From Lachnospiraceae bacterium (GTDB lineage Bacteria; Bacillota; Clostridia; Lachnospirales; Lachnospiraceae), in contig JAAWOG010000038.1 of NCBI GenBank assembly GCA_022799355.1, positions 1 through 35,170 on the forward strand: a stretch of 35,170 nucleotides of DNA, given 5' to 3'. This document shows positions 1,159-8,138 of the stretch, piece by piece. How positions within the stretch are numbered: the first letter of the stretch is position 1; each line of letters begins with the position of its first letter. The notes beneath the pieces were generated by a model. The model had not been told where the DNA came from. It did no database searches and worked only from the letters and a program-made list of their open reading frames with translations. The position numbers and the translations under genes were made by a program.

Positions 1159-1404
1159 TTATACTGATTCGTGGAAAGTACGGCTGATAACATCTGCCTG
1201 CTGTTCCGGTGTAAGCTTGATAAAGTTTACGGCATAACCGGAAACACGGATTGTAAGCTGAGGATAGTTCTCAGGATGCTTCTGAGCATCTAAAAGCATA
1301 TCTCTGTTGAGTACGTTTACGTTAAGATGATGTCCGCCTTTTGAGGAATAGCCGTCGAGTAAGTTTACAAGATTGTCTACCTGTGCATTTGTGTTTGCTG
1401 CCAT
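1159..1404 (-). CDS. grcA: Stand-alone glycyl-radical domain protein (GrcA-like)
   Basis: An 81-residue protein that is almost entirely the C-terminal glycyl-radical segment of pyruvate formate-lyase. It shows [16 protein letters not shown] followed by the radical motif RVSGYAV with Gly56, and ends with the PFL-like tail [13 protein letters not shown]. In enterobacteria GrcA (YfiD) replaces the oxygen-cleaved C-terminus of PFL, and an activase installs the radical. The same repair role here is inference. The start is well supported by AAGGAGG about 8 nt upstream. No pflB or activase gene lies in the window. The upstream region is AT-rich and carries a dyad AGTAAT-n-ATTACT near 1442-1454. Confidence 0.85.
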
Positions 1405-1652: not shown

Positions 1653-4541
1653 ATGGATATCAGAGATATTTTAACAAAGGAAGAATATGAAAGTTTGTCA
1701 CAGCTTAAGAAAGAGGATATAGACTGGATCAATGAACGGATTCGTACAAGAAAAGATGGAACGGCAGGAATCGAATGTATTGTGAGAGGCATGAACGATG
1801 ATGGGGATTATTTTAGACTGACGCCGGAAGAAGTGGTACGTCAGTTTTATGCATATAAATTATTGACCGAATACAACTATAAAAGGGAGCGTCTGAGGTT
1901 TGAGGAACCGGTATTTTTTGCCGGAAAGGCCAGGATTGATGATAAAAGAATAGATATATCCGTATATGACAAAGCGTGCAAAAAAATAGAAATGATTATT
2001 GAAGTAAAACGTCCGCGGGTGAGTGATTATCACAGTACTGGTGAGGGAGAAGCATCAACGCCCTTTCAGCAGATGCAGTCATATTGTAATCAGAAACATC
2101 CGCAGATAGGGGTGTTGGTAAACGGAAGTAAATTGCCGGAGTTTTATGATATGCCTGATTATGAAAGTCAGCTTTTGCTGGAGCGGTTTCCGCAGGGAGA
2201 TGAGGATATCCGGGCGTGGAAAGAAAAAAGGCGCTATACAATGAAGCAGCTTATGCAGGCGGACAGGCTTCGGACGGAGACGCTGAAGGATATTGTGCTG
2301 GAAGTAGAACAAAGATTCGGGGCAAATGATTCCAGTGATAAGGCATTTGAAGAGATATTCAAACTGATTTTTACCAAACTGTATGATGAAAAGTGCTCTG
2401 CTGATGATGAGGATGCGATCTTTTTGGGCATGAATACCTATCATATGGAACTGAAAGATATAGATGATTCGGAATTCAGAGTGCTGAAGTTTCGGGCAGC
2501 GGACGATGAAACGTCGGATGAGATCTATGATAAGATCAATAAGCTTTTTCAAAGTGCACAGGAGACGTGGCGGGGCGTATTTCCGGCGGATTCCGTTTTA
2601 AATATGCAGAAAGCGACAGTAAAGTCCTGTGTGAAGGAACTGCAGAATGTAAAATTGTTTCATTCCAATCTGGAAATAGTGGATGACGCCTTCGAACATC
2701 TTGTCAATCAGAATCAGAAGGAGGGGATGGGGCAGTATTTTACACCCAGATATGTAATTGATATGTGTGTGAAGATGCTGAATCCAAGACCGACGGAATA
2801 TATGATCGACACGGCGGCCGGAAGCTGTGGTTTTCCCATGCACTCTATTTTTCATGTCTGGAAACAATTAAATCCGAAAGCGTTTCATCTTTTTTCGGCA
2901 AAAAAGAGAAAGCCGGAGGAGGTGGAGTATGTCCGGAACAAAGTGTTCGGAATTGATTTCAGTGAAAAAAGTGTCAGAGTGGGCAGAATGCTGAATATCA
3001 TTGCAGGTGATGGACATACCAATGTACTGGAACTGAACTCACTGGATTTTAAAAAGTGGGAGTCCGATTATTTGAAAAATACGGAATGGTACGCGAAATA
3101 CGGAGAAGGATTTGAAAAACTTGTAGGATTGAGTGCTGATAAAACGGCAGCAGATGTCGCAGATAAGTACAAAAGATTTCAATTTGATGTGCTGATGGCG
3201 AATCCTCCTTTTGCGGGCGATCTTGATAACAGGGAGCAGATTGGGCAATACGACCTGGGACATAAGGATGGAAATACGGAAAATAAATTACAAAATAAAG
3301 TAGGAAGAGATATTTTATTTATTGAGCGGAATCTTAATTTTCTAAAGCCTGGGGGAAGGATGGCGGTGATTTTACCGCAGGGAAGATTTAACAACTCCAC
3401 AGATAAGTATATCAGAAAGTATATTATGGACAGATGCCGTATACTTGCGGTAGTCGGTCTGCATGGAAATGTGTTTAAACCACATACGGGAACAAAGACA
3501 AGCGTTCTCCTGGTACAGAAATGGACAGATGAAAACTGTGGTTATCCTGATATATGTCCGAGGCCTAAGGCGGATGAGGATGGTATGATAGATTACCCTA
3601 TTTTTTTTGCGACCATGCAGGAGCCGGGTAAAGATAATTCAGGAAATAAAATATATGTCACAGAGAAATATGTGAGATGGTGCCATTATAAGTACAGTAC
3701 GGTAAAAACGATCAAACGCAGAGAGGATGGCGATGTGATCAGCCAGGAAGAATTTGATCTGATCACAGATAAGGAGCAGTATGAAAAGATACACCTTAAT
3801 ACTGCCTATATAAAAAAGGCGGATGGGACGGCGGTGGAGGAAGCGGAGTACCGCGGAGCAAAGAAAAAATCGGATTATAAGAAGGTGGTAAGTTATGAAT
3901 ACAGGCGGAAAAGGGATGGAAAGATCTTTGATGAGAGTCAGTTCAGGGAAATTACGAAAAAGTCAAATTATGTTATAAAAACGGAAACGATTACAAAAGT
4001 GGAGGAACATAAAACGGAGGACGGAAGTCCACGGTTTATCAGGGATTTGTTTATCAGGGAGTATGGCGCAACGGAAAGCCATATAAAATGGGTTCGGGAG
4101 AATGCGGTGTTTGTGATCAAAGACGCAATGAAAAACCCGGGTGAGAAGGCAGAGATATCTATTGATAAATGGCTTATGTTAGATGCCTCCGAGAAGCAGT
4201 TATATAAAAAGAAGCCGGTGTTAGGGGATAATCCGAATCCGGAGATAAGCAATGAAGAATATTGTGCTCTGACCAGTGAAGAACGGAAATTTTATCTGAT
4301 TGCGGAAGATATCAGGGAGAGTACGGAGCGGATCAAAGATACTCATGGTCATATTTTTGTAAAGCATGATCTGTTTAATCATGATCCGATGCTTTCGAAT
4401 GTGAATCCCGATAACATATATTCTCAGAATGGTATTGCGGAAGCTTTTGCTCAATTTGCGTATGATAATGGATTAAGTTTTGCGCCTGCGGATGAGGAGT
4501 TGGAAAAGATTATGCATCCGGCAAATGAACTCCCTTTTTAG
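1653..4541 (+). CDS. Nuclease-methylase subunit of a type IIB/IIG-like restriction system
   Basis: A 962-residue protein. Residues about 60-160 form an HsdR-N-like PD-(D/E)XK nuclease: D101, then E117-V-K119, then Q140-M-Q-S-Y144, the QxxxY motif of type I nucleases. Residues about 345-650 form an N6-adenine methylase: EGMGQYFTPRYV, the SAM-binding loop DTAAGSCGF starting at D386, and the catalytic NPPF at N517. About 300 C-terminal residues have no motif I recognise. Nuclease plus methylase in one chain without a DEAD-type translocase resembles BcgI or type IIG enzymes rather than classical type I. The ATG follows GGAGAGGATAAAGT. The gene ends at CCC-TTT-TTAG, from which a -1 shift enters the specificity subunit frame. 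Confidence 0.85.
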   Translation: MDIRDILTKEEYESLSQLKKEDIDWINERIRTRKDGTAGIECIVRGMNDDGDYFRLTPEEVVRQFYAYKLLTEYNYKRERLRFEEPVFFAGKARIDDKRIDISVYDKACKKIEMIIEVKRPRVSDYHSTGEGEASTPFQQMQSYCNQKHPQIGVLVNGSKLPEFYDMPDYESQLLLERFPQGDEDIRAWKEKRRYTMKQLMQADRLRTETLKDIVLEVEQRFGANDSSDKAFEEIFKLIFTKLYDEKCSADDEDAIFLGMNTYHMELKDIDDSEFRVLKFRAADDETSDEIYDKINKLFQSAQETWRGVFPADSVLNMQKATVKSCVKELQNVKLFHSNLEIVDDAFEHLVNQNQKEGMGQYFTPRYVIDMCVKMLNPRPTEYMIDTAAGSCGFPMHSIFHVWKQLNPKAFHLFSAKKRKPEEVEYVRNKVFGIDFSEKSVRVGRMLNIIAGDGHTNVLELNSLDFKKWESDYLKNTEWYAKYGEGFEKLVGLSADKTAADVADKYKRFQFDVLMANPPFAGDLDNREQIGQYDLGHKDGNTENKLQNKVGRDILFIERNLNFLKPGGRMAVILPQGRFNNSTDKYIRKYIMDRCRILAVVGLHGNVFKPHTGTKTSVLLVQKWTDENCGYPDICPRPKADEDGMIDYPIFFATMQEPGKDNSGNKIYVTEKYVRWCHYKYSTVKTIKRREDGDVISQEEFDLITDKEQYEKIHLNTAYIKKADGTAVEEAEYRGAKKKSDYKKVVSYEYRRKRDGKIFDESQFREITKKSNYVIKTETITKVEEHKTEDGSPRFIRDLFIREYGATESHIKWVRENAVFVIKDAMKNPGEKAEISIDKWLMLDASEKQLYKKKPVLGDNPNPEISNEEYCALTSEERKFYLIAEDIRESTERIKDTHGHIFVKHDLFNHDPMLSNVNPDNIYSQNGIAEAFAQFAYDNGLSFAPADEELEKIMHPANELPF

Positions 4542-4587
4542 AGGGCCTCTCCGGTGATGAGATATATAAAAGGCTGCTGGAGAGGCG
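4532..4587 (+). promoter_or_regulatory. Candidate programmed -1 ribosomal frameshift signal
   Basis: The slippery heptamer C-CCT-TTT (4532-4538) lies in the methylase frame directly before its TAG stop (4539-4541). After a 6-nt spacer comes a stem of GCCTCTCC (4545-4552) with GGAGAGGC (4579-4586), extendable by G-U, G-C and U-G pairs to 11 bp around a 20-nt loop. A -1 slip reads Pro-Phe-Leu-Glu-Gly-Leu and stays open to 5962. Heptamer, spacer and stem match the usual architecture of -1 frameshift sites. No Shine-Dalgarno stimulator is seen 10-14 nt upstream. A natural or sequencing indel in the T5 run is the alternative. Confidence 0.55.
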
Positions 4588-5962
4588 GGAGATCAGTATT
4601 ATTCCATATAAGGAACTGAATGCGGAGCTTAGATTTGAAGCAGAGTATTTTTCAAAACGGAATATGCGTCTGTTTCAGGTGCTGAAGGCAGGAGAAAATC
4701 GTATGATCGGCGATTTTTGCGATGTGACGGACGGGATACATACATCCATTGACTATGATGAGGAGAGTTGTGTAAATCTCATATCCGCGACATCGCCCCG
4801 GGAAAATTATTTTGATCTGTCACGAAATGCGAAAATATCGGAAAAGGCACATGCGGATAATCCAAGGACGGCGCTGCGGTTACACGATGTTGTTTTGTCA
4901 ACTGTTGGTACGATAGGAAACTGTGCGGTGGTGGATCAGAATGTGCTTCCTGCAAATTCTGACAGACACGTTGGAATCATACGGGTAAAAGAGGAATATT
5001 CGCCTTATGTTGTTTCTGCTTATCTTTTGTCAAAGTACGGAAGGATGCAGACCTTTCGGGAAACCACAGGGAATGTTCAGCCCAATTTGTTTTTGTATAA
5101 GATCAGAGAAATTTTGATTCCGAAATTTGATAAAGCACTGCAAAAGCAAGTGGTGGAGATCTCGATAGAGGCACGGAAAAAACGAAATACATCGGAGCAA
5201 AAATATAAAGAGGCAGAATCTTTTCTGCTGCAGAGACTTGGAGTGGAAGACTGGAAGCCGGAGGAAACAAAAGTTTCCGTCAGAACATACAGGGATGTAT
5301 TTGCGGCGGAAAGAATAGATGCCGAATATTATCAGCAGAAATACGATAATATCAGAGAAAAGTTAAAATCCTTTGTATATTTGCCCTTCAGGGAGGTATG
5401 CAGTCTTTATGACGGGAATTTTTCGCCGGAGAAGAATACGATGTATCGTTATATAGAACTTTCCAATATTGGCTCGATGGGGGAGATCAATGGATGTACG
5501 GTGGGATATGGAAGCGATTTGCCGAACAGGGCCAGGAGGATCGTGCATAAAGGAAATATTATATTGTCCTCCATAGAGGGTTCTCTGCAAAGCTGTGCGT
5601 TGGTTACGAAGGAGTATGATCAGGCTCTGTGTTCTAATGGTTTTTATGTTATCGATTCTGAGAGGATCAATTCGGAGACGCTTTTGGTGCTGATGAAATC
5701 CTGGTTAGTACAGGCAATGCTGAAGAGAGGCTGTTCGGGGACGATCCTGACGGGATTTGACAAATCAGTACTGGAAGAGCTGCCGGTTCCGATTCCGCCG
5801 GATGATGTACAGAAGCAGACAGCGAAGCTGGTAGAGGAAAGCATCAGACTGCGGGAGGAAAGCAGGAGTCTTTTTGAACAGGCGAAAACTATGGTGGAAA
5901 GGGCTGTGGAAGGAAGGGGTGAGTGGCATTACGCCACTTCTCCGGACGCTGAAAGAACTTGA
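4538..5962 (+). CDS. DNA specificity (HsdS-like) domain, apparently read by -1 frameshift
   Basis: This is a specificity subunit with two target-recognition halves, each opening with a similar segment: ELRFEAEYFSK near 4630 and ERIDAEYYQQKY near 5310. It ends with the helical LFEQAKTMVERAVEG typical of S subunits. The first ATG (4664) has no ribosome binding site and would cut away the conserved start of the first half. The frame is open upstream to 4529 without ATG, GTG or TTG. The extension reads continuously from the methylase if the ribosome slips -1 at 4532-4538, giving a fused product of about 1436 residues. The last 15 or so residues (after about 5917) overlap a decayed foreign fragment in another frame, so the natural C-terminus may have been altered. 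Confidence 0.75.
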   Translation, partial: LEGLSGDEIYKRLLERREISIIPYKELNAELRFEAEYFSKRNMRLFQVLKAGENRMIGDFCDVTDGIHTSIDYDEESCVNLISATSPRENYFDLSRNAKISEKAHADNPRTALRLHDVVLSTVGTIGNCAVVDQNVLPANSDRHVGIIRVKEEYSPYVVSAYLLSKYGRMQTFRETTGNVQPNLFLYKIREILIPKFDKALQKQVVEISIEARKKRNTSEQKYKEAESFLLQRLGVEDWKPEETKVSVRTYRDVFAAERIDAEYYQQKYDNIREKLKSFVYLPFREVCSLYDGNFSPEKNTMYRYIELSNIGSMGEINGCTVGYGSDLPNRARRIVHKGNIILSSIEGSLQSCALVTKEYDQALCSNGFYVIDSERINSETLLVLMKSWLVQAMLKRGCSGTILTGFDKSVLEELPVPIPPDDVQKQTAKLVEESIRLREESRSLFEQAKTMVERAVEGRGEWHYATSPDAERT

Positions 5963-6011: not shown

Positions 6012-6374
6012 CCATTCCAGGAAAAAAGAGATGCGGAGGAAGGCGGATATAAGGCCAGCGGGTTAAAAATGAATCAGAAAATCTCAAACAAAGATTCGTG
6101 GGGATTGTCTGAATTGGAAGAGCGTAATGACGAAATGATCGCGCTTGCCAGTTATGTAAGTAATGCCGGTATTAGTGGATTCAATATCAGCTGTATTGCG
6201 AATTTCGACCAGGCACGTATTGATTTCTATATGGATAAGAGTGATGCCGCGAAGAATAAAGCAGCATTCGATACATTGGTTGCGCATAAAGAAGAAATTG
6301 AGCAGGAGTTGGGTGTTTCTCTTACTTGGGAGAGAGCAAATGAATATAAGGCATCATGGCTGTGCTATAAGTAA
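6012..6374 (+). pseudogene. C-terminal remnant of a GmrSD-type (DUF262/DUF1524/DUF4268) protein
   Basis: The open frame begins just after a stop with PFQEKRDAEEGGYKASGLKMN, then KDSWGLSELEERNDEMIALA. This matches the usual end of DUF1524 HNH domains: FxEKR, a GGYK-type loop, then W-x-x-x-x-I-x-x-R-x-x-x-x-A. It continues into ARIDFYMDKSDAAKNKAAFD and LTWERANEYKASW, which look like DUF4268. The catalytic HNH part and the whole DUF262 ATPase/nuclease part are absent, and the DUF4268 end is cut short. An internal ATG at 6069 would give a 101-residue product, but GGAGGA lies about 30 nt upstream, too far to serve it. I read it as the relic of a type IV-like restriction gene. Confidence 0.55.
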
Positions 6375-6470: not shown

Positions 6471-8138
6471 TTGATATATACAGATGCTGAATTAAAAGAA
6501 AAAATACATGAGATGTTGAAGGACTTTGAAACTGAGGTAGTTGAGTTCAAAGAAGCAAACAACAGCTATTCATTCAAAGATATCGGCAAGTATTTTTCTG
6601 CGCTTGGAAATGAAGCAAATATCAGAGGAAAGTCCGAGGGCTGGCTTATATTTGGCATTACCAATAAAGGGGAATTCAAGGGAACAGATTATCGTAAGAG
6701 CGGAAATCTTCAGTCTCTGAAAAAAGAGATTACCACTGGTACAAATGAAAGACTGACATTTCTTGATATTTGCGAGCTGACGATGGAGAAGTGCCGGATT
6801 GTGGCTTTCCAGATTCCGCCTGCTATACCGGGGATTCCGACGACATGGAACGGAGCGGCATGGGCAAGAGAACATGAATCCCTGGTACCGCTTCCGATGA
6901 ATAAGGTAGATTTAATCCGTAGTCAGGTTGGTATGGATTGGTCAAAGGAAATTGTGAAGGATGCGACTATAGATGATTTGGATCCTGAAGCGGTTGCATA
7001 TGCGAGAAAGATGTTTTCGCAGAAACAGGAAAACCGAAAACAGGCCAAAGAAATACTGTCGGGACTTTCCGATATTGAAGTATTAAACAAGGCCGGGATT
7101 TGTTTCAAGGGGAAGATTACGAGAACAGCTCTCCTCCTTCTTGGCAAGAAGGAATCCGCTTTCTATTTTGATGGATTTACACCGAGGATTACCTGGACAC
7201 TCTATAACGCCGACAAGACGGTAAAAGCATATGAACATTTTGATATGCCATTTCTGCTTGCAGTGGACAAAGTGTATGCCAAGATCAGAAATGAAAAGTA
7301 TAGGTATATCGCAGAGCAGCAGACACTTTTCCCGGAAGAAGTACAGCAATACGATGCAGATCTCGTCAAAGAAATTATCAATAACTGTATAGCTCATTCA
7401 GATTACAGACGGCATGGAAAAATCAATGTTGAAGAATTTGAGGATCATCTCGTTTTTATAAATGAGGGTTCCTTTATACCGGAGACCATTGAGAAAGCAT
7501 TGGAACCAGGCTATAAGCCACCATATTATCGGAATGCCTTTCTTTGTAATGCAATGGTAAACATGTATATGATTGATACGAATTCCATGGGCATCCCGAT
7601 GATCTATAATATCCAGAAGGCGAGATGCTTCCCGCTGCCGTCGTATGATTTGGATGTAGTGAACCGAGTGAGCGTTACAGTTTTCGGAAAGGTTCTTGAT
7701 AAGAACTATACGCGACTGCTCCATTCCAATGGAAGCTTGGATTTGAAGACAGTATTTTTGCTTGATCAGGTACAAAAGAGGAAGACTATATCCAAGGATG
7801 ATTATAAAATACTTAGGAAGAGCGGCTTGGTTGAAGGACGGTATCCGGCATTATATGTATCCTATAAAATTGCAGAAGCCGTCGGCGATAAAGCTGGGTA
7901 TGTAAGAAATAAAGGGCTGGATGAGAAAATATTAAAAGAACTGATCATATCCGCATTGCGAAATGGGCCTTTAAAGAAGGCAGACATTTATGAGGCAGTT
8001 AAGCATGCATTCCCGGATGTTCTTGCTGAGGAGAAACAATATAAGAAACTCTCAAACCTTCTTCAAAAAATGAAAAAAGAAGGAATAGTGGATGTCCGCG
8101 GCAGCGCTGTTCACGCAGAATGGCTCCTTATCCGGTAG
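6471..8138 (+). CDS. AlbA_2 (Schlafen-like) / HATPase domain protein
   Basis: 555 residues starting at TTG, supported by GGAGGTGAT 6-7 nt upstream. Residues about 15-150 form the AlbA_2 putative DNA-binding domain, with ETEVVEFKEA at the front and GWLIFGITNKGEFKG in the core. Residues about 295-400 form a GHKL-type ATP site: the N-box KEIINNCIAHSDYRR and then FINEGSF. The C-terminus is a winged-helix-like region (about 485-555). Such proteins are usually annotated as RecG-like or transcriptional regulators, but no helicase motifs are present. They are common beside restriction systems, and a regulatory or defence role is inference. A strong terminator follows. Confidence 0.8.
   Translation: MIYTDAELKEKIHEMLKDFETEVVEFKEANNSYSFKDIGKYFSALGNEANIRGKSEGWLIFGITNKGEFKGTDYRKSGNLQSLKKEITTGTNERLTFLDICELTMEKCRIVAFQIPPAIPGIPTTWNGAAWAREHESLVPLPMNKVDLIRSQVGMDWSKEIVKDATIDDLDPEAVAYARKMFSQKQENRKQAKEILSGLSDIEVLNKAGICFKGKITRTALLLLGKKESAFYFDGFTPRITWTLYNADKTVKAYEHFDMPFLLAVDKVYAKIRNEKYRYIAEQQTLFPEEVQQYDADLVKEIINNCIAHSDYRRHGKINVEEFEDHLVFINEGSFIPETIEKALEPGYKPPYYRNAFLCNAMVNMYMIDTNSMGIPMIYNIQKARCFPLPSYDLDVVNRVSVTVFGKVLDKNYTRLLHSNGSLDLKTVFLLDQVQKRKTISKDDYKILRKSGLVEGRYPALYVSYKIAEAVGDKAGYVRNKGLDEKILKELIISALRNGPLKKADIYEAVKHAFPDVLAEEKQYKKLSNLLQKMKKEGIVDVRGSAVHAEWLLIR

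Follow-up and report, generated by a model that had tools for sequence, protein, structure and literature searches.

A putative programmed -1 ribosomal frameshift between the restriction-modification and specificity parts of a bacterial restriction enzyme

Type IIB restriction-modification (RM) enzymes differ in how the RM and specificity (S) parts are assembled. BcgI has the architecture 2RM:1S (PMC3874165) and BsaXI is described as (RM)2S (PMC11997821), and the action of the single-chain enzymes AloI and CjeI with one RM part and two target-recognition domains (1RM:2TRD) was termed a mystery in a review (PMC3874165). In prokaryotes, the most familiar cases of recoding are those of insertion sequences, prfB and dnaX; dnaX occurs in both layouts, i.e. 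the -1 shift yields either the short or the long product, with 50% efficiency (PMC3711429). The locus described here brings both subjects together. It lies on contig JAAWOG010000038.1 of a Lachnospiraceae bacterium (assembly GCA_022799355.1; the analysed stretch of 35,170 nucleotides (nt) is called the window hereafter), where an RM gene is followed by S in the -1 frame. Judged by comparison of homologous loci, the RM-S junction very probably carries a genuine -1 frameshift signal. The best explanation overall, held with good confidence, would be a programmed -1 ribosomal frameshift cassette yielding both RM and an RM-S fusion. The decisive support is comparative, as slip phase, spacer and stem recur at 56 distinct loci.

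Slip site, stem and reading frames in the window

The two coding parts of the locus are arranged as follows:

1653..4541, plus strand: RM gene (zero-frame product), 962 amino acids (aa), ~112 kDa, with an HSDR_N_2 nuclease and an N6 adenine methylase
4538..5962, plus strand: S part, read in the -1 frame for 474 codons, with two tandem target-recognition units (Methylase_S, 2e-9)

Pfam matches in RM were HSDR_N_2 (9.5e-14) and N6_Mtase (9.3e-30), with Eco57I also matched and no helicase model found in RM by Pfam. The top-scoring solved relative was RM.BsaXI (8w0p, E 1.9e-23). The two recognition units of S align with each other (N-half vs C-half, E 1.4e-7), and the motif R-x-D/E-A-E-Y-Y/F occurs twice in S, as RFEAEYF at residue 32 and as RIDAEYY at residue 259. 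The RM reading frame ends in ...CTC CCT TTT TAG, which gives RM the predicted C-terminus ...HPANELPF, and the elements at this end are:

4532..4538, plus strand: slippery heptamer C_CCT_TTT, in X_XXY_YYZ phase in the zero frame, the same phase being found at 56 distinct loci
4539..4541, plus strand: RM-frame stop TAG, immediately 3' of the heptamer
4539..4544, plus strand: spacer of 6 nt from the predicted fold, overlapping the RM stop
4545..4555, plus strand: 5' arm of the predicted stimulatory stem of 11 bp
4576..4586, plus strand: 3' arm of the predicted 11-bp stem, which encloses a loop of 20 nt
4664..4666, plus strand: earliest possible S start codon, ATG, 3' of the conserved RFEAEYF motif

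Ribosomes keeping the zero frame would terminate at TAG, yielding RM, whereas those held up at the stem would re-pair on C_CCT_TTT, shift one base back and read into S, giving an RM-S product of 1436 aa (~167 kDa, predicted) with the predicted join peptide IMHPANELPFLEGLSGDEIYK. An initial annotation of the window had claimed a CCCTTTT heptamer in the zero frame, an immediate TAG, a 6-nt spacer and a stem, all of which could be read directly from the sequence, the stem being predicted at 11 bp. It had also placed the conserved N-terminal half of S upstream of the first ATG. The -1 frame is indeed open for 474 codons, and the RFEAEYF motif lies upstream of ATG 4664, the first ATG, GTG or TTG in the S frame of the window, ~42-44 codons past the slip. 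ATG 4664 is unlikely to be the genuine start of S.

The position of this first start past the RFEAEYF motif already bears on translational coupling, in which S, as is usual for type I systems, would be a protein of its own whose translation restarts close to the RM stop, the -1 relation being an inherited stop-start overlap. Such coupling has been described for EcoKI hsdM-hsdS (PMC3510504), and we consider it improbable for the present system, on grounds that come mainly from its relatives.

Conservation of the junction among homologues

A species-genome collection yielded 18 relatives of RM, 17 of which reach the junction, and S lies at -1 in 17/17. Genomes with a match numbered 1/9 in the genus (the window's own), 6/397 in the family, 7/295 in the order and 7/398 in the phylum, each count including the window's own; the other 8 genomes of the genus gave no match. 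The orders of three relatives yielded 12/241, 5/218 and 18/151 genomes with a match, each including the relative itself. Viral contigs gave 14 pattern matches and 0 relatives, and one unannotated phage-labelled faecal scaffold (L042) has the system. Not all matches have the signal, and the system is uncommon and scattered.

With the window counted once and repeats included, 86 loci were collected, 83 of which extend to the RM end: 73 are signal-bearing, one is decayed, six have separate genes and three are distant (L041, L043 and L044, left unclassed); the others (L015, L051, L064) end inside RM. Leaving out 16 repeats and one locus cut off by the contig end 24 nt past the slip (L059), the signal-bearing loci represent 56 distinct junctions, 55 from a main table of 72 rows plus a Klebsiella plasmid locus (L039) added separately. 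Layout A, with S at -1, is found in 46 of them, and layout B, with RM-S in one frame, in 10. The RM stop of the A loci lies 0 nt past the heptamer in 20, 3 nt in 24, 21 nt in one and 27 nt in one. A classification of the Klebsiella plasmid locus as separate genes was ruled out by a T_TTT_TTT located 27 nt before the RM stop and a stem, which place it in layout A.

XXX and YYY triplets make up the heptamer at 55/56 distinct loci, and the 55 loci of the main table have TTTTTTT (29), TTTTTTC (18), CCCTTTT (6), CCCTTTC (1) or TTCTTTT (1), with a spacer of 6 nt in 41/55 and of 7 nt in 14/55. Pairs 1-6 of the top-scoring stems form in 55, 53, 55, 55, 55 and 52 of the 55 loci, the arms of each locus being the highest-scoring pairing found by search, which chose poorly for L074 and L077, both placed with the others by the alignments. 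These alignments, which served for covariation, comprise a short-loop set of 29 and a long-loop set of 24 of the 55 loci; L017 and L071 stand outside them with different loops and the stem present, as does L039. With fixed columns, 99.3% of 290 cells are paired in the short-loop set, vs 42-66% when the partner is slid by 1-3 columns. Both sides have changed in 6/10 pairs of the short-loop stem, with 38 double-change cells vs 10.3 in shuffles (0/500 as high), and in the long-loop set 5 pairs are 100% formed, 2 of them with double changes. The same helix was recovered by an independent consensus fold in each set. Compared with 2000 synonymous recodings per locus, the stem was stronger at p<=0.05 for 55 of the 56 loci, 46 of which also reached p<=0.01 and 28 p<=0.001; in the window, 1/2000 recodings that preserve the encoded S peptide matched its score. 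No combined p-value is given for these tests because the sequences are related.

The signal also appears specific to this junction. When a covariance model built from the short-loop set was run with stricter filters on the Schwartzia order (151 genomes), 16 gave matches at E<=0.01, all at known RM/S junctions (10/16 inside the model, 6/16 outside), with 0 matches elsewhere; the known loci of two genomes (L071, L081) were missed at this threshold. SD-like (Shine-Dalgarno-like) stretches occur 5' of the slip in 41/55 loci vs 25% of control places.

Layout B comprises eight loci of the Schwartzia order (open as far as fetched), a further in-frame copy of the same order with S broken in its distal half (L072), and plasmid pAQ6 of Picosynechococcus PCC 7002, where the locus is annotated as one N-6 DNA methylase (WP_012308631.1). 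These loci were selected by the LSFF peptide and not by the heptamer, and all have T_TTT_TTT (AGT TTT TTT) followed by GA, so that a -1 slip hits TGA immediately in 10/10; a 7-nt spacer and the stem are present in 10/10, with <=13/2000 recodings as strong. A -1 slip in layout B would thus terminate at TGA and release RM alone, and unslipped reading would give RM-S. The main difference between the layouts is one spacer nucleotide (6 vs 7 nt), slip and stem being retained. A comparison with in-frame single-chain homologues had been proposed in the initial annotation as a check; the in-frame homologues, 10/56, keep the slippery T7, the 7-nt spacer, the stem and a TGA in the -1 frame. Layouts A and B are interleaved on the tree, where well-supported branches force 3 changes of the B label (bootstrap unsettled, supports rough). 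The tree omits five rows of <550 aa (L012, L031, L037, L056, L068), and the Klebsiella plasmid locus has the label C (separate genes) in it, which leaves the B-vs-rest count unaffected.

What this comparison establishes is the phase of the heptamer, its spacing from a stem that covaries, the uniformity of the -1 relation and the reversal of the layout in single-frame relatives, and these features bear on the rival explanations. For translational coupling, SD-like stretches upstream of the slip (41/55 loci) would be in keeping with a restart, and six relatives with separate genes (L025, L035, L036, L037, L040, L066) show how coupling appears in this family when it is used: the slip is absent, RM has an FW-type tail, a GGAGG-type SD-like stretch lies in or just after this tail, and the ATG of S overlaps the stop or follows it by <=12 nt. 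The signal-bearing loci look different from these six. A start overlaps the RM stop in 13/46 A loci (TTG in 11, ATG in 2), and restart would be feasible there; restart is less likely overall because a start at the stop is lacking from 33/46 A loci. Coupling further leaves unexplained why slip phase and spacer are kept, why the stem covaries and why the same signal is present in the 10 in-frame loci.

Transcriptional slippage is similarly improbable. Here RNA polymerase would drop one base in the T run, and some mRNAs would encode RM-S, as in the dnaX of some bacteria, where long A runs are used in this way (PMC3711429). The all-T heptamer of 29/55 loci would suit this mechanism. The T run at the slip is just 5 in the window, however, and 18 other loci have TTTTTTC; codon phase is kept and the direction is always -1, which PMC3711429 takes as a mark of ribosomal recoding, and the stem begins 6-7 nt downstream, inside the range of 5-8 nt given for signals of the ribosomal type (PMC4066793). 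The short T runs (5-6 in many loci), the retained phase, the constant direction and the stem distance thus make transcriptional slippage less likely than a ribosomal frameshift.

An artefact or decay (i.e. an error in the T-run count, a tract subject to phase variation or a pseudogene) is less credible still and largely contradicted. The window rests on a single draft contig, homopolymer tracts serve phase variation elsewhere (PMC3711429), and several relatives are damaged at other positions, besides one in-frame locus with TTTTTTA (a T6 slip run) and a broken or truncated S (L063), which we judged to be a decayed copy. However, the same relation is found in the named isolates Schwartzia DSM 10502, Selenomonas massiliensis and Clostridium thailandense as well as on a plasmid and on E. 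coli chromosomes called complete, runs of differing length stand in the same phase, and layouts A and B differ mainly by the spacer and not by the heptamer. By this comparison the window junction is not an assembly error, because 56 distinct junctions have a T-rich slippery heptamer in phase, a spacer and a stem.

Several observations nevertheless weigh against a programmed ribosomal frameshift. The fold of the window (whole-fold energy -22.5 kcal/mol, with the slip-site bases also paired with AGGG just downstream) is by itself modestly unusual (z -1.76; 13/200 dinucleotide shuffles as stable), and an SD-like stretch is absent from the window upstream of the slip (-1.7 kcal/mol). One locus has an imperfect heptamer (L005, TTCTTTT), and another a stem no better than its recodings (L010, 145/2000 as strong). 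Further pair types do not exceed shuffles in the short-loop or long-loop set (476/500 and 499/500 as high). Only 3/45 A loci (the window, L019 and L061) are clearly without an ATG, GTG or TTG before the S motif, which was not found by pattern in 8. Several copies also show damage away from the junction, namely an interrupted or short S (L019, L026, L030) or stops or frame breaks within RM (L012, L013, L056). The codon choice at Ser-Phe-Phe junctions speaks in favour of a selected signal (Ser as AGT in 47/47 vs 15% of the Ser codons in the same genes; first Phe as TTT in 47/47 vs a gene mean of 68%). The A loci were selected by the heptamer, so that a T-ending codon preceding it is built in for them, but none of the readable loci with Ser-Phe-Phe at the junction is without the heptamer. 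Taken with the retention of heptamer and covarying stem in the homologues, the balance supports the proposal of the initial annotation that a programmed -1 frameshift would fuse RM to S, and the proposal withstands the refuting condition set there, in-frame homologues with T4 or T6 and no conserved stem.

Two products and subunit stoichiometry

Layouts A and B agree in that RM terminates at the slip or close to it and that RM-S is joined at this point; the simplest reading would be that selection retains both products. Slippage in the cell, its frequency and its purpose are what we infer from the comparison of loci. A role in tuning cutting against methylation, as the initial annotation had envisaged, seems less apt because RM and RM-S would both contain the nuclease and the methylase; a role in setting the subunit ratio would fit better. 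The purpose we somewhat favour is stoichiometry, in which one RM and one RM-S would supply the two RM units needed by an S with two recognition units. Since a two-unit S needs two RM and a complex of RM and RM-S would supply them, both halves of the enzyme would come from a single gene, comparable to dnaX with its tau and gamma. An engineered M-S fusion of EcoKI offers a parallel, as it cut in vitro only with added free HsdM, and its authors propose a complex of one M and one M-S (PMC3510504). On the other hand, a homotetramer has been reported for TstI, a single-chain enzyme (PMC4027205); a related design can thus function with RM-S alone, which speaks against this purpose.

Should the two layouts truly be interchangeable under one signal, a slip efficiency of about one half would be expected, as published for dnaX. 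A wider proposal, for which we see about even chances, is that RM-S enzymes of several phyla and both layouts undergo ~50% -1 frameshifting to give equal RM and RM-S, with an asymmetric RM:RM-S pair as the active form, and that a similar hidden site could explain how other single-chain type IIB enzymes act with 1RM:2TRD. With the frameshift reading, the question of how a chain with two such units obtains its second RM becomes testable, and if this reading holds true, recoding would set the subunit composition of a DNA-defence enzyme, a new use in bacterial defence.

Distribution and comparison with known systems

By record title, the relatives belong to Lachnospiraceae, Oscillospiraceae, Selenomonas, Schwartzia, Clostridium, Treponema and Bacteroidales and include a cyanobacterial plasmid and a Klebsiella plasmid, i.e. 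they span Bacillota, Spirochaetota, Bacteroidota, Cyanobacteriota and Pseudomonadota. One locus titled Bacteroidales metagenome-assembled genome NALB_7861_11 (L013) has the same junction as G195:C22, which is placed in the window's family; title and placement disagree. The Klebsiella plasmid is conjugative and carries an RM-S locus with slip site (L039 3483-6907), which is also present at 99.9% identity on the chromosome of 3/5426 complete E. coli genomes; one E. coli copy (L088 3001-6425) is identical around the slip. Of the signal-bearing records, the annotated ones examined describe the locus as a methylase with a separate S (L039, L088) or as one long methylase (L038), which suggests mis-annotation of signal-bearing RM-S genes.

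Among the open PMC full-text matches listed there was no report of frameshifting between the RM or M and the S part of a restriction enzyme; supplements and subscription papers lie outside this scope, so that REBASE or the PMC3711429 cluster lists may contain such an entry. Phage genes with a known frameshift include methyltransferases according to one listing (PMC10885494), and frameshifting was tested for and not seen in a C-REase fusion (PMC3850674).

Beyond the junction, RM proteins of the window-like branch have an extra stretch of ~200-270 aa ahead of the C-terminal tail (residues ~676-943 of RM), which is absent from shorter RM relatives (~660 aa) and has no Pfam name within it. Located 3' of S are a short DUF4268 protein (6069-6374) and a protein with Schlafen/AlbA_2 (SLFN_AlbA_2) and RecG-type ATPase parts (6471-8138), and these two open reading frames possibly belong to the same defence island as the RM-S locus. 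RM itself showed no HsdR helicase motor, and the search beyond it covered these two reading frames, which matched models of DUF4268 and of SLFN_AlbA_2 plus a RecG-type ATPase. An open reading frame of 81 aa adjoins the RM gene on the minus strand (window 1159-1404), and we take it to resemble a stand-alone glycyl-radical domain.

The closest parallel for the signal is dnaX with its tau and gamma products, where a slippery heptamer and a stem likewise lead to a long and a short product of one gene meant for one complex. As in a dnaX-type dual-product gene, RM and RM-S would share their N-terminus and diverge by frame at one conserved slip, a likeness that here is read from sequence. The protein family is different from dnaX, and the heptamers are T-rich or CCCTTTT in contrast to A_AAA_AAG. 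The enzyme parts resemble type IIB BcgI and BsaXI, namely an RM with nuclease and N6 methylase, no helicase, and a two-unit S. Unlike BcgI and BsaXI, which are described with separate RM and S subunits, RM-S would be joined here by a frameshift and accompanied by free RM. Because no start codon precedes the S motif in the window and RM and S share a single frame in 10 relatives, we would not file the system as BcgI-like, only as working like BcgI. In combining RM with two recognition units in a single chain, RM-S would be like AloI, CjeI and TstI, whereas the descriptions available for these enzymes, on which rather than on genes the comparison was made, include no frameshift. Like EcoKI hsdM-hsdS, it has M and S in different frames. 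Unlike it, the junction described here carries a slippery site, which is not mentioned in the available parts of PMC3510504, where the natural EcoKI pair is described as coupled and the M-S fusion is an engineered one.

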